From the NCBI GenBank assembly GCA_026391675.1, contig JAPLDQ010000012.1:62001-126000 (forward strand): 64,000 bases of DNA, written 5' to 3'. Below the pieces are notes generated by a model, which worked only from the letters and a program-made list of their open reading frames with translations, ran no database searches and was not told the origin of the DNA. Origin of the DNA: Bacteroidota bacterium. GTDB taxonomy: Bacteria; Bacteroidota; Bacteroidia; Bacteroidales; JACABE01. Shown here piece after piece: positions 1,595-14,360 of the stretch. How positions within the stretch are numbered: the first letter of the stretch is position 1; each line of letters opens with the position of its first letter. A program made the translations under genes and the position numbers.

Positions 1595-2278
1595 ATGAAA
1601 GCAGAAGATTTTATCCTGTTACTGGTTGATGATGAATCGGATATTTTGGAATTTTTAGGTTATAATCTGCGTAAGGAAGGCTATACGGTACATACCGCTG
1701 AAAATGGCAGGGAAGCCATTGAGAAGGCTAGTCATTTACATCCGCATTTAATTATTTTAGATGTAATGATGCCCAAAATGGATGGTATCGAAACTTGTGC
1801 TGAAATCAGAAAAAATCCCACACTTGCAAATACCCTGATTGTTTTTCTTACTGCCAGAGGTGAAGATTACTCACAGATAGCAGGTTTTGAAGCAGGTGCT
1901 GATGACTATATAACCAAACCCATCAAGCCAAAGATTATTATAAGTCGTGTAAAAGCATTGCTCCGCAGGTACCGCAATGACCAGCCTGTTGAAAACAGGC
2001 TTGAATTAAAGGATATCATCATTGACAAAGAGAGATACCTCGTCATAAAAGACGGTAAAGAAATTATATTGCCACGCAAGGAATTTGAATTGCTCTCCAT
2101 ATTATGTTCAAAACCCAATAAGGTGTTTACCAGGAGTGAAATATTTTCAAAAGTATGGGGCGATGATGTTATTGTAGGCGACAGAACCATAGATGTGCAC
2201 ATCAGACGAATCCGCGAAAAAATCGGAATCGAAAATTTAAATACGATTAAAGGTGTGGGGTATAAGTATGAAGAGTAG
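1595..2278 (+). CDS. OmpR/PhoB-family response regulator
   Basis: This 227-residue protein is a DNA-binding two-component response regulator. The receiver domain (about 5-125) has the acidic pair D12-D13, the phosphoacceptor D56 in LDVMMPKMDG, T86 and K108 in DDYITKPIKP. The C-terminal half is a winged-helix OmpR domain with the usual ending (RTIDVHIRRIREKIG...IKGVGYKYEE). The next gene on the same strand is a PhoR-like histidine kinase, 239 bases away and probably its partner. Because the window also holds a phosphate operon with an 11-base phased repeat, of the kind that tandem OmpR-family regulators bind, this protein is a plausible PhoB. That link is an inference. Confidence 0.95.
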   Translation: MKAEDFILLLVDDESDILEFLGYNLRKEGYTVHTAENGREAIEKASHLHPHLIILDVMMPKMDGIETCAEIRKNPTLANTLIVFLTARGEDYSQIAGFEAGADDYITKPIKPKIIISRVKALLRRYRNDQPVENRLELKDIIIDKERYLVIKDGKEIILPRKEFELLSILCSKPNKVFTRSEIFSKVWGDDVIVGDRTIDVHIRRIREKIGIENLNTIKGVGYKYEE

Positions 2279-2517: not shown

Positions 2518-3567
2518 ATGTATAATTCAAATCCAAAAAAAATCGCCCTTAACAATGCTGTTTTTATAGCCTTGTTTTTCCTGCTGATGTATGCTTTAAT
2601 TACTATACTATTGGGTCAATTTCATTTACTTAGCCTATTATTGCTGACGGCTGGAATATTTGTCTTTTCGTTTATCATCATCAATTATTCCGTTGAAAAA
2701 TTCATCTATCAGAAAATCAGAATCATCTATAAAAATATTCATAATATTAAAGTCTCCAAGAAGACATTTCTGGAACAAATGAAGGAAACACCCGATTTAT
2801 TGGAGAATGTAAATCAGGATGTACTGGATTGGGTTGTTAATAAGAGCAAAGAAGTGGAAGACCTCAAAAAACTTGAGATTTACCGGAAAGAATACATTGG
2901 TAATGTTTCGCATGAGCTGAAAACACCTGTTTTTAATATTCAGGGCTATATTTCGACCTTGCTGGAAGGAGGTATGGAAGATGCTGCCATCAATAAAGAA
3001 TACCTGGAGCGCTCAGAAAAAAATGTAAACAGAATGATCAGTATTTTACATGATCTTGAAGAAATATCACGGCTGGAAACCGGAGAACTAAAACTGCACT
3101 ATACCCACTTTGATATCATCGCACTGGTTAAGGAAGTGTTTGAACACCTTCACATAAAAGCTGAGCAGAAAAACATCATCTTAAAGATAGCCCCTACTGA
3201 CGAAAAGCAGAAAATTGTGGAAGCCGACAGGGAACGTATCCGTCAGGTGCTGATAAATCTGATTGAAAATTCGCTCAAGTATTCCAAAGATGAAAATGCT
3301 TCAACCAAAGTGAGTTTTTACGATATGGATAAGCTCATGCTGATAGAAGTGGCTGATAATGGCATAGGTGTCAGCGAAGCCGATATACCCCGTTTATTTG
3401 AACGTTTCTACCGTACCGATAAGGGCAGGGCCCGCACCGAAGGCGGCACAGGACTGGGCTTATCCATTGTAAAACACATCATTGAAGCCCACCAGCAAAC
3501 CATTAACGTAAGAAGTACATTAGGCGTAGGGACTACATTTGGGTTTACACTGCAAAAAGGGGGATAG
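2518..3567 (+). CDS. PhoR-like sensor histidine kinase
   Basis: This 349-residue inner-membrane kinase phosphorylates a response regulator. Two membrane segments sit at about 13-32 and 37-57 with almost no extracytoplasmic loop. A linker follows, then the H box with phosphoacceptor H132 in NVSHELKTP. The ATP-binding domain has an N box at 243-255 (NLIENSLKYSK), DNGIG at 280-284 and GGTGLGLS at 309-316. The tiny periplasmic loop argues that it senses through its membrane part or through partners, as PhoR does with the Pst transporter and PhoU. It follows the response regulator, although the 239-base gap is unusually wide for a two-component operon. Confidence 0.93.
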   Translation: MYNSNPKKIALNNAVFIALFFLLMYALITILLGQFHLLSLLLLTAGIFVFSFIIINYSVEKFIYQKIRIIYKNIHNIKVSKKTFLEQMKETPDLLENVNQDVLDWVVNKSKEVEDLKKLEIYRKEYIGNVSHELKTPVFNIQGYISTLLEGGMEDAAINKEYLERSEKNVNRMISILHDLEEISRLETGELKLHYTHFDIIALVKEVFEHLHIKAEQKNIILKIAPTDEKQKIVEADRERIRQVLINLIENSLKYSKDENASTKVSFYDMDKLMLIEVADNGIGVSEADIPRLFERFYRTDKGRARTEGGTGLGLSIVKHIIEAHQQTINVRSTLGVGTTFGFTLQKGG

Positions 3568-4188: not shown

Positions 4189-4614
4189 ATGAAAAAAATA
4201 ATTTTCGTTGCTATGCTTATTTTATTAAACTTAGCAACAAGCTTTGCGCAAAGCAAAGCACCGGCTGCTGTAATATCAGCTTTTAAACAAAAATTCCCAA
4301 CAGCCACTAAAGTAAGCTGGGGAAAAGAAAATGCCAAAGAGTGGGAAGCAGAGTTTACATTAGATGGAAATAAAGTTTCTGCAAACTTTAACCTTGAAGG
4401 TGTTTGGCTGGAGACCGAAATGGAAATTCCTGTTTCAAAGTTACCAAAAGCTGTTGCTGATGCAATACAAAAGCAATACCCTAATTGGAAAATTACCGAA
4501 GCCAATAAAACCGAAACCGCTAAAAACGGATGGATTTACGAAGCAGATATTAAATCAGGTAAACAAAAGAAGGAAGTTGTTTTTAAAGAAGACGGAACAA
4601 GTGTTGTAAAGTAA
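4189..4614 (+). CDS. Secreted PepSY-like protein (DUF2874 type)
   Basis: This 141-residue protein starts with a clear signal peptide ending near SFAQSKA. Two similar halves follow, each with the pattern 'hydrophobic-helix, QKFPTATKVSWGKE / QKQYPNWKITEANK, then a charged beta-hairpin'. That two-repeat layout is typical of periplasmic PepSY-like (DUF2874) proteins of Bacteroidota, whose function is poorly known. The coding strand is very rich in AAA/GAA codons. A strong hairpin terminator follows 8 bases after the stop, so it probably forms a single-gene unit. Confidence 0.8.
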   Translation: MKKIIFVAMLILLNLATSFAQSKAPAAVISAFKQKFPTATKVSWGKENAKEWEAEFTLDGNKVSANFNLEGVWLETEMEIPVSKLPKAVADAIQKQYPNWKITEANKTETAKNGWIYEADIKSGKQKKEVVFKEDGTSVVK

Positions 4615-4721: not shown

Positions 4722-7091
4722 ATGAACCTTTACCAGAAATTACAGCAGGCAAAAAGCGAAGAAGACGTAAAAGATGCCTATATCAAGGCACTTGGATTAA
4801 AGGGATATTCAAAAAATTTAATTGACATACAAACCAAAGAAATCTGGTTTGAAGCAAAGGACAGCGGGAAAAATTCCACCTATGCCATGTTTACCCAGCT
4901 GATGCATTATGTACAGCAGGCCTTGAACAAAGGTGAATATGTACCACCATTTCTGGCTGTAATTGATACCCAAAAGGCAGCCATCATGAAAAGTACCGAT
5001 GTCCTCTCCTTTTTGGAAAAGAAAACCATTAAATGGGGCAAAAATGCCAGCAATTATACTCCCGAAGCACTGGATGCCATTTCTGCCCATATCGGCACTC
5101 ACTTTGTAAGTTTTAAAATAGAAACTCACGAAGAGGAATTTATCAATACCATTAAAAATGCCATTAAAAACGGAGATATTATCCGTACGCAAATTACGCC
5201 CGACAACCTGAAACAGGTATTCGACAAATGGGTGCAAATGATAGGCCGTGAAATTAAAGGGGTTGCCGAAGAAGATTATGCCCTCTTGTTTTTTGCTGAT
5301 ATCATGCACGATGGCACGGTTTCTACCCACGAAAACCTGCCTGCTGAGTTGATGCACAAAAACAATGCCCCTGTTTTCCTATTGGCCGGCAAGGTTTACG
5401 AACTGAGCAACAAAGAAGGATACCGCCAGTTCTGGGCCATTTACCACAAACCACCCAAGGCGGAATACCGCGATTACCTGCTGGAACGCCGCGACAGCTT
5501 AATCCCGCTTGACGAAAGAAGTTTTAAAGGGGCGTATTATACACCCCTTGCCGTTGTGGATAAAGCTTACGATAAGTTAGCCGAAACGCTGGGCAACAAC
5601 TGGCAGAAAGAATACATTGTATGGGATATGTGCTGCGGTGTGGGCAATCTGGAAGTTAAACACAGCAATCCCCGCAATATTTATATGAGTACCCTCGACC
5701 AGGCCGATGTAGATGTAATGAAAGCCACCAAAACCTGCGTTGCTGCCGAACGCTTCCAGTACGATTACCTCAACGATGACATAACTGACTTTGGTGAAAT
5801 AGATTATTCGCTTACCAATAAAGTTCCGGAAGGCTTACGCAAAGCCATAGCCGACAATAAGAAGATTTTGGTGCTGATAAATCCACCTTATGCAGAAGTC
5901 AGCACTAGCATTGATAGTGAAAATAAAACTGGAGTTTCTGCAACACAATTGTCAAAAATGATGAACAATTATGGCTATGCTAAACGAGAGTTATTTACTC
6001 AATTTATGGCACGTGTTAAAAAAGAAATTCCATCCGCTACACTTGCAATGTTTAGCACTTTAAAATATATCAATGCACCAAATTTTGAGCAATTTAGGAA
6101 TTTATGGTATGCAACATATTTAGGTGGTTTTGTAGTTCATAATAGAGCTTTTGATGGATTAAATGGTAACTTTCCAATTGGATTTTTAGTATGGTCAACA
6201 AATAATCTTAAAAAACAAACTACAATTAAAGAAGTATTAACTGAAGTGTTTGATAAAAATGTCAAACCTATTGGTGAGAAAACTTATTACAATTTACCTA
6301 ATAGTGAACACTTAAACTCATGGATACCAAGACTAACTACAGATTGTAATAATATACCGTTAAAAAATGCAATTCACCCTCAAATTGCTAAAGCAAAAGT
6401 AATTGCATGGGTTGAAAATGCCATTGGTTATTTACTATGCAAAGGTGGAGATGTACAAAATGCTAATCAAACAGGCTTGTTATCTTCTGTCTATAGCAAT
6501 GGTTGTGGATTTTATGTCACTAGAATCAATCTCTGGCAAGCAGCTATTGTTTTCACAGTCCGCCGTGTTATAAAACAAATCTGGCTTAACGACCGCGACC
6601 AATTCTTACAACCCACTGAACCACTCACCGATGAGTTTAAAAATGATTGTTTAATATGGATGTTGTTTAATGGCAGCAACCTAACCGCGAGTGCCAATGA
6701 GTTGGAATGGAATGTTAAAAGTTGGTCTATCGTAAATCATTTTATTCCTTATACCGAGGAAGAAGTTGGGGCCAACGGGCGTTTTGAATCAGATTTTATG
6801 GTGAATTATCTGGCAGATAAAATTTTATCGGATGAAGCCACAGCAGTGCTCAATGCAGGCAAAGTATTGTGGCAGGCTTATTTTCAGCATACCGATGTAA
6901 GGACTGTAAGGGATGAGTTAAAGCTCAACCGCCCTGATGTGGGCTGGTATCAGATAAGGAAAGCCCTGCAGGCACGAAATGCAAGCGGAGATTTTCCACC
7001 TGTAAGCTTTAAACAGTTTGAAGAAACATATAAATCCTTAACCGAAAAATTAGAACCTCAGGTGTATGAGCTGGGTTTTTTAAAAAGATAA
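4722..7091 (+). CDS. Type IIG-like DNA methyltransferase/nuclease (N6-adenine, NPPY class)
   Basis: The 789-residue protein has the features of a one-chain restriction-modification enzyme. Near the N-terminus, D35...E44-A-K46 fits a PD-(D/E)xK nuclease core. YYTPLAVVD (272-280) is the methyltransferase entry motif, DMCCGVGN (302-309) the SAM-binding motif I, and NPPY (387-390) the catalytic motif of adenine-N6 enzymes. Residues from about 392 to 610 would carry the DNA-target recognition part and are encoded by far AT-richer DNA than the rest. No separate endonuclease, specificity subunit or BREX gene is adjacent. At 789 residues it is shorter than many Type IIG enzymes, so it might act as a methylase only. 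Confidence 0.85.
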   Translation: MNLYQKLQQAKSEEDVKDAYIKALGLKGYSKNLIDIQTKEIWFEAKDSGKNSTYAMFTQLMHYVQQALNKGEYVPPFLAVIDTQKAAIMKSTDVLSFLEKKTIKWGKNASNYTPEALDAISAHIGTHFVSFKIETHEEEFINTIKNAIKNGDIIRTQITPDNLKQVFDKWVQMIGREIKGVAEEDYALLFFADIMHDGTVSTHENLPAELMHKNNAPVFLLAGKVYELSNKEGYRQFWAIYHKPPKAEYRDYLLERRDSLIPLDERSFKGAYYTPLAVVDKAYDKLAETLGNNWQKEYIVWDMCCGVGNLEVKHSNPRNIYMSTLDQADVDVMKATKTCVAAERFQYDYLNDDITDFGEIDYSLTNKVPEGLRKAIADNKKILVLINPPYAEVSTSIDSENKTGVSATQLSKMMNNYGYAKRELFTQFMARVKKEIPSATLAMFSTLKYINAPNFEQFRNLWYATYLGGFVVHNRAFDGLNGNFPIGFLVWSTNNLKKQTTIKEVLTEVFDKNVKPIGEKTYYNLPNSEHLNSWIPRLTTDCNNIPLKNAIHPQIAKAKVIAWVENAIGYLLCKGGDVQNANQTGLLSSVYSNGCGFYVTRINLWQAAIVFTVRRVIKQIWLNDRDQFLQPTEPLTDEFKNDCLIWMLFNGSNLTASANELEWNVKSWSIVNHFIPYTEEEVGANGRFESDFMVNYLADKILSDEATAVLNAGKVLWQAYFQHTDVRTVRDELKLNRPDVGWYQIRKALQARNASGDFPPVSFKQFEETYKSLTEKLEPQVYELGFLKR
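5890..6560 (+). other. AT-rich segment inside the methyltransferase gene
   Basis: Sampled 60-base lines before it (5401, 5641) contain 30 and 27 G+C, and a line after it (6721) contains 27. Lines within it (6061, 6181, 6241) contain 15, 13 and 17. The change starts right after the NPPY codons and covers the expected target-recognition region. Confidence 0.75.
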
Positions 7092-7875: not shown

Positions 7876-8559
7876 TTATTGATTTTCGGTCTTCTTCTGA
7901 TGCTTAATGATTATACCTTCCACCACAAAGGTAATAGATTCGGCGATATTGGTTGAATAGCCTGCAATACGCTCGAGCAGATTTACAATGATCATGATAT
8001 TGGTTGCCACCACTATGATTTCTTTCTGTTTCATCATTTCTTCAATAATTTTTTCAGAAATCTGATGGCAATTTTCCTTGATTTCAACAGCGTTTTTAAA
8101 AATATCGTCAGCCAGAACCATATTATGGGTTTTAATCAACTGATCCACATCTTTGTACATCATTACCGTTTTGTTTGCCACAACATCTATACCCAGTTCT
8201 TTAGATAAATAGGTATAATCGCAAACACCATCAATTCTTTTGGCAATATTAACTGCATGATCACCAATGCGTTCCAGATCATTATTAATCTTAAGCGATG
8301 AAATGATGTATCTTAAATCAGTTGCCACCGGTTGCTGCAAGGCAAAAATCTTCTGACAAAGCTTGTCAATTTTCACATCCAGTTTATCTACCTTATTATC
8401 ATTTTCTATTACATGTTGAGCCAGTTCCATATCACAACTGTTTAAGGCAAGTATGGCATTGCTCACTTGTTCTTCAACAAGATGACTCATTTTTCTAACC
8501 CTTTCGGTTAATTTTTCGAGTTCATTGTCAAATATCCTGTATTTTTCCATTTCAGTCAT
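7876..8559 (-). CDS. phoU: Phosphate-transport regulator PhoU
   Basis: This 227-residue all-helical protein has the twin PhoU domains. Recognisable blocks are ALNSCDMELAQHVIENDNKVDKLDVKID, AL-QQPVATDLRYIISSLKINNDLERIGDHAVNIAKR in the first half, and a matching LLERIAGYSTNIAESI in the second. The E-x-x-x-D metal-site residues (NDLERIGDHA) are present. PhoU dampens PhoR signalling when phosphate is plentiful and adjusts Pst uptake. It sits 22 bases after pstB, the usual order. Confidence 0.97.
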   Translation of the reverse strand: MTEMEKYRIFDNELEKLTERVRKMSHLVEEQVSNAILALNSCDMELAQHVIENDNKVDKLDVKIDKLCQKIFALQQPVATDLRYIISSLKINNDLERIGDHAVNIAKRIDGVCDYTYLSKELGIDVVANKTVMMYKDVDQLIKTHNMVLADDIFKNAVEIKENCHQISEKIIEEMMKQKEIIVVATNIMIIVNLLERIAGYSTNIAESITFVVEGIIIKHQKKTENQ

Positions 8560-8581: not shown

Positions 8582-9340
8582 TTAACCAAATCTTCCGGTT
8601 ATATAATCTTCAGTTTGTTTTTTGTCGGGATTAGTATATATTTTTTTTGTTTTATCAAACTCTATCAATTCACCTATATAAAAGAAAGCAGTATAATCAC
8701 TAACTCTGGCTGCTTGTTGCATATTATGGGTTACAATAACAATAGTATATTTATCTTTTAATTCGTGTATCAGTTCTTCAATTTTTGATGTTGAAATGGG
8801 GTCGAGTGCACTGGCCGGTTCATCCATCAGAATAATTTCAGGATTAACAGCCAACGTACGGGCTATGCAAAGACGTTGCTGCTGACCGCCTGATAAACCC
8901 AGGGCTGAATCATATAAACGGTCTTTTACCTCATCCCAGATGGCAGCATTTTGCAGTGAAGTTTCAACAATTTCAGTTAATTCATTTTTATTGTTGATTC
9001 CATTGATACGTGGCCCATAGGCTACGTTTTCAAAGATGGATTTGGCAAAAGGATTTGATTTCTGAAAAACCATACCTACTTTTTTACGCAGGTTAACCAC
9101 ATCAATATTTTTATCGTAAATATTAATCCCATCAATAAAAACATTTCCTTCAATCTTAACAGAATCAATTAAATCATTCATTCTGTTCAAACTTCGGAGA
9201 AAAGTAGATTTTCCGCAGCCTGATGGTCCGATCAATGCTGTTACTTTATTTTCAGGTATACTTATAGAAATATTATTCAGCGCCATTTTACTTCCATAGT
9301 GCAAATACATATTTTCCGTTTGAATTTTAATCGTTTTCAT
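8582..9340 (-). CDS. pstB: Phosphate ABC transporter ATPase PstB
   Basis: This 252-residue ATPase powers high-affinity phosphate import. It shows Walker [10 protein letters not shown] (38-46), Q-loop VFQKSNPF (91-98), the signature LSGGQQQR (149-156), Walker B ILMDEPAS (170-177) and the H-loop [13 protein letters not shown] that is typical of PstB. Length is normal for the family. It lies between pstA (19-base gap) and phoU and would dimerise under PstA/PstC at the inner face of the membrane. Confidence 0.98.
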
Positions 9341-9359: not shown

Positions 9360-10400
9360 TTAAGCAATGCGTCTTTTTCTGATTCTGTATCTTAAAATAA
9401 TGGCTACTATATTGAGCGAGAAAGTAAGCAACAATAATACCATAGTTGTTCCGAACTGTATAGGCAAAGTCTGATCTACATTGGCTGATTGCGTGGTCAT
9501 AATATAGATATGATATCCCAATACCATGAACTGGTCGCTCAGTGAGCCCGGTAAGGTTGCCAGATAATAGGCAGCTCCTGTAAAAAGTATAGGTGCAACC
9601 TCTCCTGCCCCACGGCTTACAGCAAGAATAGCACCGGTTAAAATACCGGAAATGGATCCCGGAAAAACCACCTTGCGGATGGTTTGCCATTTTGTAGCAC
9701 CCAGGGCTAAACTTGCTTCACGCAATTCGCGGGGAATGGTTTTCAACGCTTCTTCCACAGAAACAATTACAACCGGTAAGGTAAGCAAAGCCATGGTTAA
9801 ACTGGCCCATAGAATATTGGGTTGTCCCCATTTCAAATGTCCGCCCAAAAACACACTATCCATTCCGGTTCCAACATATTTGATAAAAAACCCAAGACCG
9901 AACAAACCATAAATAATGGATGGAATTACAGCCAGTGTTCTTACTGCAAAACGGATGCTCCGGGCAATAAATGAATTTTCTCTGGCATATTCGGTGAGAT
10001 AAATTGCCGTTATGGTACCAAAAGGTACAGCTGCTATGGACATAATAATTACCAATAATGCTGTTCCATAAATAGCAGGGAATATTCCGCCTTTTGTCAT
10101 GCCTTCCTTAGGGAAAGTAGTCAGAAATTCCCAGGTAAACATTGATTTTCCGCCATTAAAAATAACCACCAGCATTACAATAAGTATAGCGACAATTATC
10201 AATGCTGAAGCTAGGGTTATTCCTTCAAAGATAAAGCCTTTGGCATCTCTTTTATACCGATTGGTTTTCAATTTTAACATTTCAAAAAAAGAGTTTTTTT
10301 GAAATGTTGTTGAAAATCCATCGGCATTTAATTCTGTAATCGTATTATTTCGATTTTGTTTTTTGGAACGAACAGAATTATAAAACTTTTGTAGCATCAT
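9360..10400 (-). CDS. pstA: Phosphate ABC transporter permease PstA
   Basis: This 346-residue permease has an N-terminal cytoplasmic extension of about 50 residues, a first membrane helix, and then the ABC permease core. The coupling loop EEALKTIPRELREASLALGATKWQTIRKVV contains the EAA-type motif that docks on PstB. Its ATG overlaps the pstC stop by 4 bases, so translation is coupled. The N-terminal extension before the first helix is longer than in the E. coli protein (296 residues). Confidence 0.96.
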   Translation of the reverse strand: MMLQKFYNSVRSKKQNRNNTITELNADGFSTTFQKNSFFEMLKLKTNRYKRDAKGFIFEGITLASALIIVAILIVMLVVIFNGGKSMFTWEFLTTFPKEGMTKGGIFPAIYGTALLVIIMSIAAVPFGTITAIYLTEYARENSFIARSIRFAVRTLAVIPSIIYGLFGLGFFIKYVGTGMDSVFLGGHLKWGQPNILWASLTMALLTLPVVIVSVEEALKTIPRELREASLALGATKWQTIRKVVFPGSISGILTGAILAVSRGAGEVAPILFTGAAYYLATLPGSLSDQFMVLGYHIYIMTTQSANVDQTLPIQFGTTMVLLLLTFSLNIVAIILRYRIRKRRIA

Positions 10401-11686
10401 TTTCCCTGAATTTTTTTCATTAATTTACCTTTTACCCAGAATTCTGCAATAGCATTGATGATAAAAGTGAAGATAAACAACATTGAACCAATTAAAAATA
10501 ATACATTATAATGGGTATCACCGAATACAACTTCTGCCATTTCAGCACCAATGGTAGCAGCCAGGGTTCTGACAGATTCAAATGGATTTAATCCCATCAT
10601 AGCTGCATTTCCTGTTGCCATTAAGGCAATCATGGTTTCGCCGAACACCCTTCCAATGCCTAATAAAACTGCAGCAAATATACCCGGTGTGGCTGCCGGC
10701 AATATTACAAAGAATGCTGTTTGCCATTTGGATGCACCCAATGCAAGACTGGCTTCATAATAGGTTTTAGGTACAGCAGTCAATGCATCTTCGGTAATGG
10801 TATAAATAATAGGAATAGCAGCAAGTCCCATAGCAATTCCACCTACAAATGAGTTTAAACGGGTAGCGTAACCAAACAAATTCTGTAAAAAGCTGGCCAT
10901 TACCATTAAGGCAAAAAACCCTATAACTACTGATGGAATTCCAGCCAACATTTCAATGGTTGGCTTAATGATTTCCTTTAAGCGTTTATTGGCAAAAACT
11001 GAAGTATATAATGCTGCAAGTATAGCCAGCGGTGCAGCAAACAATAATGAAATAATGGTTATCTTGAATGTTCCTAAAAGTAAAGGTAATAAACCATATC
11101 TGGGATTATCAGAAACCGGTTGCCAGGTTTTTGTAATTAAAGTTTTTATAGCTTGTTTATTAGAAGCATTGGTTGAACCGCTTTCAGTTGCTTCATTTGG
11201 TGTTTTGTTTTCACCCATCATCAGGGAATCTTTGCCGGTTTCAACTCCATATTGCTCCTGTTGGCTTGCTTCTGTAGTTTCTACGCCATATTGTTCCTGT
11301 TTGGCTGGTTCAGATGTTTCCGCTCCATATTGCTCCTGTTTTTCAGGTGCTGTGGTTTCCACTCCGTATTGTTCCTGCTGCGGATTTTGATTTGCTGTAT
11401 TGTTTTGATTTTTAGTCGCTGTTAATTGCTCTGTTTTAGGTTTATCTTTTGACCCAAAATTAAAAATAGGGAAAGATTCCCTGAAGACAAAGAAAAAAAT
11501 CAGAATAATAATAGTGATGGAAAGAAAAGCAACACCTTTAATGATTTTTTCAGCAATAAAATCCGACCATCTGAAACGTTTATGGGTTATATCGATTTTA
11601 TCGCCGGGCATTGCTTTTTGCTTTCTAAAAAGGCCTGTTAATTTTGAGATAATTTGTTTAATTTTATTCATAAGCTTAAGTAGCAT
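10397..11686 (-). CDS. pstC: Phosphate ABC transporter permease PstC with repeat-bearing loop
   Basis: This 429-residue permease pairs with PstA. The core and coupling loop (EDALTAVPKTYYEASLALGASKWQTA) are standard. Between the first membrane helix (about 50-72) and the second (from about 200) lies a low-complexity periplasmic loop of roughly 120 residues. Four consecutive copies of QEQYGxET sit at residues 104-150 of that loop, with a 13-residue period. This loop explains why the protein is about 110 residues longer than usual. An alternative internal start (MNKIKQ, codon 6) is possible and would not alter the loop. Confidence 0.95.
   Translation of the reverse strand: MLLKLMNKIKQIISKLTGLFRKQKAMPGDKIDITHKRFRWSDFIAEKIIKGVAFLSITIIILIFFFVFRESFPIFNFGSKDKPKTEQLTATKNQNNTANQNPQQEQYGVETTAPEKQEQYGAETSEPAKQEQYGVETTEASQQEQYGVETGKDSLMMGENKTPNEATESGSTNASNKQAIKTLITKTWQPVSDNPRYGLLPLLLGTFKITIISLLFAAPLAILAALYTSVFANKRLKEIIKPTIEMLAGIPSVVIGFFALMVMASFLQNLFGYATRLNSFVGGIAMGLAAIPIIYTITEDALTAVPKTYYEASLALGASKWQTAFFVILPAATPGIFAAVLLGIGRVFGETMIALMATGNAAMMGLNPFESVRTLAATIGAEMAEVVFGDTHYNVLFLIGSMLFIFTFIINAIAEFWVKGKLMKKIQGK
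11231..11377 (-). repeat. 39-base tandem repeat within pstC
   Basis: It encodes QEQYGVETTAPEK, QEQYGAETSEPAK, QEQYGVETTEASQ and a final QEQYGVETG. The third-position differences between copies show it is not a very recent duplication. Confidence 0.9.
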
Positions 11687-11828: not shown

Positions 11829-12671
11829 TTATCGTACAGGGAAATAACCCATTTCAGTAACCAAACCTTGTCCTTCAGGACTTAAAATCCAGTCAATGTA
11901 TGCTTTCATTGCACCTGTTGGTCTGTTTCTTAAATACATATATAAGTATCGGGTTATCGGATACTGATTGTTTTTAATAGTTGTTGCATTTGCTTCGTAT
12001 GCAGGACTGTTGGTATCTTTTTTAACTTTACAGATTTCAATTCCGGTAGAATAAGCTGCACCTCCGTATCCAATTCCGTTTACATCTTTTTTAACAGCAT
12101 TCACAACTGCAGCAGTTCCGGGTAATGTCTGACAATTTGGAGCATAATCAGCTTTTACCACATTGTCTTTAAAGAATACATAGGTTCCTGAACTGTTTTC
12201 CCTGCCATATAATCTGATATCAGCATTGGCACCTCCAAGATCTTTCCAGTTTTTGATTCTTCCGGCAAAAATATCGCTTAATTGTTTTAATGTCAGTTCT
12301 TTAACTTTGTTGCCCGGATGTAAATAAATAGTGATACCATCTTTTGCACATGGAACTTCAACTCCTAATGTATTGTAACGATCTTTTAATTTGTCAATTT
12401 CAGATTGTTTCATCTTACGACTGGCATTACAAATATCGGTAGAACCATTGATTAAAGCAGAAATACCTACGCCTGAGCCACCACCTGTTACCTGAATAGA
12501 AGCAGTTGGATTTTTCTTCATATAAACTTCAGCCCATTTCTGAGCTAAAATTACCATAGTATCAGAACCTTTAACGGTGATTCTTTCCTGATTGATGAAT
12601 GCAAAACTGATAATTCCTGTTACTAATAAGCTAAGAACTACAGCTAATTTTTTAATGTTTAATGTTTTCAT
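11829..12671 (-). CDS. pstS: Phosphate-binding protein PstS
   Basis: This 280-residue protein captures phosphate in the periplasm for PstCAB. It has a signal peptide ending near FINQ. Family blocks are VKGSDTMVILAQKWAEVYM, TGGGSGVGISALINGSTDICNASRKMK, IYLHPGNKVKELTLKQLSDIFAGRIKNWKDLGG, and GRENSSGTYVFFKDNV, where the serine and threonine residues line the phosphate site. It lies 46 bases after the porin gene and before pstC, separated from pstC by a stem-loop that could set PstS in excess over the permease. Confidence 0.97.
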   Translation of the reverse strand: MKTLNIKKLAVVLSLLVTGIISFAFINQERITVKGSDTMVILAQKWAEVYMKKNPTASIQVTGGGSGVGISALINGSTDICNASRKMKQSEIDKLKDRYNTLGVEVPCAKDGITIYLHPGNKVKELTLKQLSDIFAGRIKNWKDLGGANADIRLYGRENSSGTYVFFKDNVVKADYAPNCQTLPGTAAVVNAVKKDVNGIGYGGAAYSTGIEICKVKKDTNSPAYEANATTIKNNQYPITRYLYMYLRNRPTGAMKAYIDWILSPEGQGLVTEMGYFPVR

Positions 12672-12717: not shown

Positions 12718-14241
12718 TTAGAATTTTGCCTGAATCCTAATGGTAAATGTGTTTTGTTTAAATACAGAATTATAATAATTGTATTGATCCACACCATTGA
12801 TGGTTGCTTTATCATTCAGATTGATTAAATTATTATTTGCATCTTTTGTAAGATCTTTTGATTGAGTTTTTTCATTCATTGGAATTTCGTAAGCAAAAGT
12901 TACACGGATATTGTCATTTAAATAATGATTCCATGCCAGGGTTAAGGTTTGATATGCGATATCACCGGTACCACTGTTTAGTTTAACATTGGTTTGGGTA
13001 ACATTTTTTGTAACTATAATGTTTTTACCTGATACTTTTGATGAGGTTGTAGTTACATCAGCGATACTGGCATTATAGAATTTAGAATTAATTTCGTTGC
13101 CTGAAATCTGAGTATTTGGATCATAGAAATCATATCTTGCAGATATCTGATTCTTTTTGCCAATATTTTTATTCAGATATAAATATCCACCTGAAAATTT
13201 AACGATCTGATTTGGTTTCTGTGTTTTATTTATGGTATTTGTAGTCGTTGTAAGAATGGTATCATTGGTAGCATTCATTGCATTTGCGGTTGTAGTTGTA
13301 GTTGCATTGGATATATAACCGGGCAATGCATTCTGTCCCATCATATATTCGCCTTTCAATGACATTCCACCAAGGAAATCAACATATAACTGGAACTCAG
13401 CACCAATCCAGTTGCGTTTTAATGCATCACCAACAGCAGTTGTATTATTATCTAAGGTATAATCACCTTTTATGGTAGAAGTTGAAGTAGCTTTAAGCTG
13501 ACCTAAATATCCGTTAAACCCGAAATCCAGACCGATAATATCATTAATTTTTGAAGTATAAGTTGCTCTGAACATAAAGTCCTTAAAATTATCATAATCT
13601 TTATTCGTTAAAGCCTGAGCAGTATTCATGTTGTTTCCCAATGCATCTTTATATGTAAAACCATCATTACCGTTCAAAATTGCCAATTGCAATTTTAATG
13701 GAATTATTTTTGCTTTATATTCCAATTTAGCACCTATGGCTCTTTCGCCCGGATATAAGGCTTTGATAATACGTGAACGTTCCGGAACTTCGCGCTGACT
13801 GGAAGAATATTCAACTTCATAGTTAGGACGGTTAAATTTACCAACCCATAAATCAAGGTTCTTAAATATTGGTGAATTGGCAGTAACATAAGCATCCTTA
13901 AGTTCAAAACCTCCCGGACCTAATTCAGGTTGTAAAACAAATCTTACGCCTTCTGCAGCTTCATACTGAACTTTTAACCTGGTACGACGTACCTGAAAAG
14001 AATTATTAGGATACGACAGTTTATTTTCGAAATAATCAAATTGGCCTTGTATATAACCGGAAATTTTAATTTTGTTATGCTTTGATAAATCACTTTCGGT
14101 TGTTAATAAACGCTCATCAATACCATTGATACGTTCTTTCAGTTCAACCATTTGATCTTTCAAAGAGTCCTGAACACTTTGTGCTTTAGCATTAATTGCT
14201 AAACAAATAAAGATTGTAATAATCAGATAAAAATTTTTCAT
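12718..14241 (-). CDS. Phosphate-selective porin (OprO/OprP type)
   Basis: This 507-residue outer-membrane protein has a signal peptide (cleavage near AKAQ), a short coiled coil (ELKERINGIDERLLTTESDL) and a beta-barrel of the porin O/P family. The barrel contains ISGYIQGQFDYFE, FQVRRTRLKVQYE and LKDAYVTANSP...LWVGKFNRPNYEVEYSSSQREVPERSRI. It ends in a terminal strand closing with FTIRIQAKF, the usual aromatic end. It leads the operon, which gives a complete path: porin, binding protein, ABC importer. The promoter just upstream carries the phased TTAAG repeats. Confidence 0.93.
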   Translation of the reverse strand: MKNFYLIITIFICLAINAKAQSVQDSLKDQMVELKERINGIDERLLTTESDLSKHNKIKISGYIQGQFDYFENKLSYPNNSFQVRRTRLKVQYEAAEGVRFVLQPELGPGGFELKDAYVTANSPIFKNLDLWVGKFNRPNYEVEYSSSQREVPERSRIIKALYPGERAIGAKLEYKAKIIPLKLQLAILNGNDGFTYKDALGNNMNTAQALTNKDYDNFKDFMFRATYTSKINDIIGLDFGFNGYLGQLKATSTSTIKGDYTLDNNTTAVGDALKRNWIGAEFQLYVDFLGGMSLKGEYMMGQNALPGYISNATTTTTANAMNATNDTILTTTTNTINKTQKPNQIVKFSGGYLYLNKNIGKKNQISARYDFYDPNTQISGNEINSKFYNASIADVTTTSSKVSGKNIIVTKNVTQTNVKLNSGTGDIAYQTLTLAWNHYLNDNIRVTFAYEIPMNEKTQSKDLTKDANNNLINLNDKATINGVDQYNYYNSVFKQNTFTIRIQAKF

Positions 14242-14292: not shown

Positions 14293-14300
14293 CAAAAGTA
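14293..14300 (-). promoter_or_regulatory. Candidate -7 element of the phosphate operon
   Basis: The minus strand reads TACTTTTG, matching TAnnTTTG, 52 bases before the porin ATG. The -33 position (about 14320-14323) reads ACAG rather than TTTG and falls within the last phased repeat, as expected for an activator-dependent promoter. Confidence 0.6.
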
Positions 14301-14320
14301 GATAGCATTTAACATGATGC

Positions 14321-14360
14321 TGTTAAGCTAAGATTAAGTTAATATTAAGAAATTGTTAAG
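14321..14360 (-). promoter_or_regulatory. Candidate Pho box: four 11-base phased repeats
   Basis: TTAAG occurs on the plus strand at 14323, 14334, 14345 and 14356, exactly 11 bases apart. Read in the direction of the operon, the 7-base cores are CTTAACA, CTTAATA, CTTAATC and CTTAACA with 4-base AT-rich spacers. This is the 7+4 geometry of the E. coli Pho box, and the core resembles the TTAACA repeats of the Bacillus PhoP box. The last repeat overlaps the -33 position. Confidence 0.75.

Follow-up and report, generated by a model that had tools for sequence, protein, structure and literature searches.

A phased array of four 11-bp repeats upstream of a porin-pstSCAB-phoU operon is a candidate Pho box in Bacteroidota

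Four phased repeats precede a porin-pstSCAB-phoU operon

We analyzed 64,000 nucleotides of a Bacteroidota genome (assembly GCA_026391675.1, contig JAPLDQ010000012.1, positions 62,001 to 126,000), hereafter the window, which carry an operon with the gene order porin-pstS-pstC-pstA-pstB-phoU on the minus strand and, in front of it, an array of direct repeats that an earlier note, made from the DNA letters alone, had proposed as a candidate Pho box. The word TTAAG occurs at 14323, 14334, 14345 and 14356, with a spacing of exactly 11 bp. Read on the operon strand, the array is (CTTAAYM-N4)x4 and ends 20 bp 5' of the -7 element TACTTTTG, with the ATG of the first gene, the porin, at 14241. Promoters of Bacteroidota are built from -33 and -7 elements, and from this layout and the spacing of the array, repeat unit 4 is expected to cover the -33 position of the predicted promoter. 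The operon given in the earlier note stands for pst and phoU, which match TIGR families (Table 1); the first gene matched no Pfam family at its cut-off, and we call it a porin because a congener protein 50% identical to it matches Porin_O_P.

Table 1. Coordinates of the array, the predicted promoter, the operon and the candidate regulatory genes in the window
Feature	Position	Strand	Sequence or basis
Predicted Pho-box array, four 11-bp direct repeats	14317..14360	-	CTTAACA-attt, CTTAATA-ttaa, CTTAATC-ttag, CTTAACA-gcat
Repeat unit 1	14354..14360	-	CTTAACA
Repeat unit 2	14343..14349	-	CTTAATA
Repeat unit 3	14332..14338	-	CTTAATC
Repeat unit 4	14321..14327	-	CTTAACA; start 27 bp before -7 element
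-7 promoter element	14293..14300	-	TACTTTTG (TAnnTTTG)
Outer-membrane porin, 507 aa, first gene of the operon	12718..14241	-	50% identity to congener protein matching Porin_O_P
pstS	11829..12671	-	TIGR02136
pstC	10397..11686	-	TIGR02138
pstA	9360..10400	-	TIGR00974
pstB	8582..9340	-	TIGR00972
phoU	7876..8559	-	TIGR02135
PhoB-like response regulator, candidate array binder	1595..2278	+	best NF053854 match of the genome, below cut-off
PhoR/PnpS-like histidine kinase, candidate partner	2518..3567	+	best NCBIfam match PnpS, 253 of 400 bits

The array is rare in the window and in the genome

The spaced pair TTAAG-N6-TTAAG occurred three times in the window, each time within the array, compared with a mean of 0.44 in dinucleotide shuffles, which never yielded three in 100; three phased TTAAG copies appeared in 0 of 100 window shuffles. 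The four-unit matrix score of the array was 41.0, while 20 window shuffles gave at most 15.1. In pattern searches of the whole 4.04-Mb genome (G000), three phased YTTAAY, i.e. (C/T)TTAA(C/T), were found in the array only, and CTTAAY-N5-CTTAAY in the array and in a single further pair (C21:5396), around which no array reached a matrix score of 9. The four TTAAG words at 11-bp spacing and the operon-strand 7-mers claimed in the earlier note are confirmed by the coordinates, the shuffles and this uniqueness. TTAA words are common in this AT-rich region, as expected if the repeat had arisen by chance in intergenic DNA; the shuffles, the uniqueness in the genome, the phasing kept in congeners and the register with the promoter described below contradict such an origin, which we consider extremely improbable.

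The 11-bp phasing is conserved upstream of pst genes

Four phased repeats are also present in front of the same operon in two congeners (G001 and G003), with the 11-bp phasing kept exactly. We trained a weight matrix on these three promoters only and ran it over 2.6 kb upstream of pstS; the score cut-offs were picked after inspection of the data, and the sequences share ancestry. On the coding strand of 79 named pstS loci, 15 loci scored at least 15 at a period of 11, compared with 0 or 1 at each of the remaining periods between 7 and 17, and with 1 on the reverse strand at period 11. Among 12 relatives from the order, a score of 12 was reached at period 11 by five forward and three reverse arrays and at other periods by 0–1, and a score of 15 by two at period 11 and one at period 17, numbers too few to carry weight. 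Across the periods tested, enrichment was restricted to 11. Matrix-detected arrays recur before the pst genes of Bacteroidales, Ignavibacteria, Kapabacteria and others, and clear arrays at pstS loci include those of Ignavibacteria, Kapabacteria, Delongbacteria and Flavobacterium metagenome-assembled genomes (MAGs). Upstream of pstC within the order, 10 of 30 loci had an array with p ≤0.03; the array was absent at many of the pstC loci scanned, where the 1.5 kb taken may for some fall short of the operon promoter. In orthologous promoters, which the earlier note had singled out as the place where a spurious array should be missing or unphased, it survived, being phased in congeners and recurrent in other lineages.

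As a candidate class-wide form, we also tried strict CTTAAY x3, which occurred in only two of 149 class genomes and was for this reason rejected.

Array and promoter are held in a common register

A more general matrix built from pst promoters detected 79 distinct arrays in the loci analyzed, and TAnnTTTG was sought at distances of 7 to 62 bp, counted from the start of the last unit. It was present in this range for 35 arrays, 32 of which lay at distances of 16 bp (12 arrays), 27 bp (16), 38 bp (2), 49 bp (1) or 60 bp (1), all equal to 5 modulo 11; the three off-register arrays were at 18, 31 and 61 bp. We attach no formal probability to this register: matrix and cut-off were settled once the data had already been inspected, and some of the loci come from related genomes. 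At the same score, arrays with periods of 9, 10, 12 and 13 numbered 4, 0, 1 and 0, respectively. The window array belongs to the 27-bp class, and in a gap-free alignment of ten promoters of this class the spacer is constant in length and variable in sequence.

Searches blind to gene content were also made. Three phased TAACA units were found 11 times in 296 class genomes, compared with two matches in the reversed control, and when the -7 element was included at a free distance of 5–25 bp, 396 genomes yielded seven matches and the control none; five of the seven had one of the two in-register gaps, 9 and 20. The genes downstream include a Porin_O_P protein (phosphate-selective porin), TonB receptors, a MORN protein followed by an OmpR-type regulator, a CarboxypepD_reg/MORN pair and less obvious genes, and one array adjoins a polyphosphate kinase gene, from which it points away. 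Both congeners have a second array some 6 kb beyond the first, in front of genes for a CarboxypepD_reg protein and a MORN protein.

These targets bear on the idea that the array serves a broader envelope or outer-membrane regulon, in which pst is one member and the main signal is something other than phosphate. TonB receptors, T9SS proteins, a ChaN-like protein and an ECF sigma factor among the gene-blind matches would fit it, as would the PhoP motif of Riemerella discussed below, which its authors compared with ArcA and linked to virulence. The recurrent targets, however, are promoters of pst and of phosphate-selective porins, and a TonB receptor encoded in the phoBR operon of Flavobacterium johnsoniae is among the genes that phosphate depletion induces (PMC8115612), making a regulon of this kind improbable.

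A PhoB-like regulator is encoded in the window

The protein encoded at 1595 ranks first among the PhoB candidates of the genome and is, judged by homology, the candidate binder of the array. In the genome-wide ranking against the Bacteroidota PhoB model NF053854 it obtained 218.6 bits, compared with 179.8 for the next protein. Alignment with Escherichia coli PhoB places VWGDDVIVGDRTIDVHIRRIR in its recognition-helix region and shows that W184, G185, V190 and D192 are kept, PhoB residues implicated in polymerase contact (PMC3348028). Orthologs of the regulator (61–62%) lie near box-bearing pstS genes at two loci (L088 and L084), in both cases together with orthologs of the kinase, and a further one is present in the cluster L201. 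In another relative (G058), the regulator gene itself has an array in register, 27 bp from TAATTTTG. Among 14 pst-bearing relatives, the regulator was present in 8 of 9 with an array score of at least 8 and in 0 of 5 below this threshold (p=0.003), or in 5 of 6 vs 0 of 5 without the window's own genus (p=0.013), the threshold having been set after the scores were seen.

The array as a predicted Pho box

The array consists of direct repeats with seven conserved and four less conserved bases and an 11-bp period, it sits in the promoter of phosphate-acquisition genes, and the placement of such arrays relative to the core promoter is fixed in 32 of the 35 arrays with TAnnTTTG, all of which are properties of a Pho box. 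On the strength of the phasing in congeners, the recurrence before pst and the -7 register, we consider it highly probable that the array serves the porin-pstSCAB-phoU operon as its Pho box, to which a PhoB-type regulator, most likely the 1595 protein, binds under phosphate starvation; the earlier note was largely right. The quantized distance between array and promoter, together with conservation and recurrence, argues for activator-dependent, helix-phased contact with the promoter. Under phosphate starvation, the kinase at 2518 would phosphorylate the PhoB-type regulator, whose monomers would then line up head to tail, one on each of the four 11-bp repeats. With the repeats on the same helical face and in constant register with the -7 element, the bound regulator could substitute for the weak -33 element, hold RNA polymerase and switch the operon on.

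Several results weigh against this reading. TAnnTTTG was not in range for 44 of the 79 arrays, and the general matrix, the score cut-offs and the array threshold were, as stated, chosen with the data in view, among related sequences. A second pst locus is present in the genome (L304, C36:59000-68000, with a pstS-like match at C36:62816 and a pstC-like match at C36:63860), and no array reaching a matrix score of 9 was found at this second operon. The array had been expected upstream of pst, phosphatase and porin genes alike; it was found at pst and Porin_O_P genes, whereas only one of 30 PhoX-family loci (L225) had a clear array upstream, so that phoX is not generally under its control in the class sample. 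The 1595 protein scored 219.2 bits against NF053854 and did not reach the cut-off of 270, and no clear array precedes its own gene. Across 59 relatives, the regulator was not coupled to the window's type of pstS (8 of 14 with pstS vs 33 of 45 without, p=0.32), and a close 1595 ortholog was not found, at 1e-60, in the array-bearing genome G043.

The last two observations would also fit a Pho box bound by a different regulator of the OmpR family, for which four further full-length OmpR-type matches in the genome are available. The lead of the 1595 protein in the PhoB ranking, its PhoB-like contact residues and the orthologs beside box-bearing pst genes point the other way, and we regard a different binder as unlikely.

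Relation to known Pho boxes

The earlier note had likened the array to the Pho boxes of E. coli and Bacillus. In its 7+4 layout, the E. coli box is the closest to the window array; the cores differ, being CTGTCAT in the E. coli consensus (PMC4415409), which is absent from the window units, and CTTAAYA here. The E. coli box lies 10 bp upstream of the -10 element (PMC1906773), near the 9-bp gap of the 16-bp class, while the window has four units and a 27-bp spacing, one period further upstream. In sequence, the nearest known box is that of cyanobacterial SphR, rather than those of E. coli or Bacillus: in Synechocystis, at least three tandem copies of CTTAACCT with a 3-bp linker precede pst and phosphatase genes, the pstS2 array reading CTTAATTCtatCTTAATTTcgaCTTAATCA (PMC1906773). 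The two share tandem repeats (8+3 bp in SphR) and the 11-bp period and differ in phylum and promoter type, the window array being registered to the Bacteroidota -7 element TAnnTTTG.

Riemerella anatipestifer belongs to the same phylum as the host of the window. The most conserved bases of its PhoP motif from DAP-seq are TTTAACA, a 7-mer that we equate with the unit of the window array; the available part of that report compares the motif with ArcA, ties it to virulence and describes neither an 11-bp array nor a link to pst (PMC9603813). In Bacteroides fragilis, an electrophoretic mobility shift assay showed PhoB bound to a 512-bp fragment from the pstC promoter, which places PhoB at a pst operon, with no site sequence in the accessible portion of the source (PMC3547664). 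In line with the remark in the earlier note that Pho-box sequences are poorly documented in this phylum, our searches, made in an open-access library, yielded no defined Bacteroidota Pho box and no published description of the array tied to phosphate genes in Bacteroidota and neighboring phyla.

We cautiously favor a wider proposal, in which (CTTAAYA-N4)x3-4 is a common Pho operator of Bacteroidota and neighboring phyla, placed at several whole-period distances from the -7 element (16, 27, 38 bp and more), with the regulator acting from one helical face and not from one fixed position. If the Pho-box assignment is true, it would supply an operator for the control of phosphate genes in a phylum for which the papers located demonstrate regulation (B. 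fragilis, F. johnsoniae) but define no site, a rule of array plus register with which to search for members of the regulon, and a natural series of -33/-7 promoters on which to study how an OmpR-family activator works at different whole-turn distances.

Further observations

One other in-register array is present in the genome of the window (L166 1501-1548, G000:C36:102557), 16 bp from TACTTTTG. No forward open reading frame of at least 80 aa follows for about 450 bp, this region has no Rfam match and its folding is not unusual; the array may drive a short peptide or RNA. At L203, a single TonB-receptor cluster contains two arrays, at 4466 and 10624, each 38 bp from TAATTTTG. The second array of congener G003 (L199 7008-15574) precedes genes for CarboxypepD_reg and MORN proteins, two T9SS-tail proteins, a TonB-plug protein and a Fib_succ_major protein.

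Among named PstS proteins, the closest comes from a Prolixibacteraceae MAG (76%). The PstS at G043:C92 is 80% identical to that of the window, although G043 is assigned to another family, pointing to either transfer or a binning error. Between the kinase and the pst genes, the window encodes a 789-aa protein (4722-7091) with no Pfam match at 1e-5. At 779-1341, a ParE-type toxin gene (PF05016) is accompanied by a small gene that belongs to no Pfam family and possibly encodes the antitoxin.
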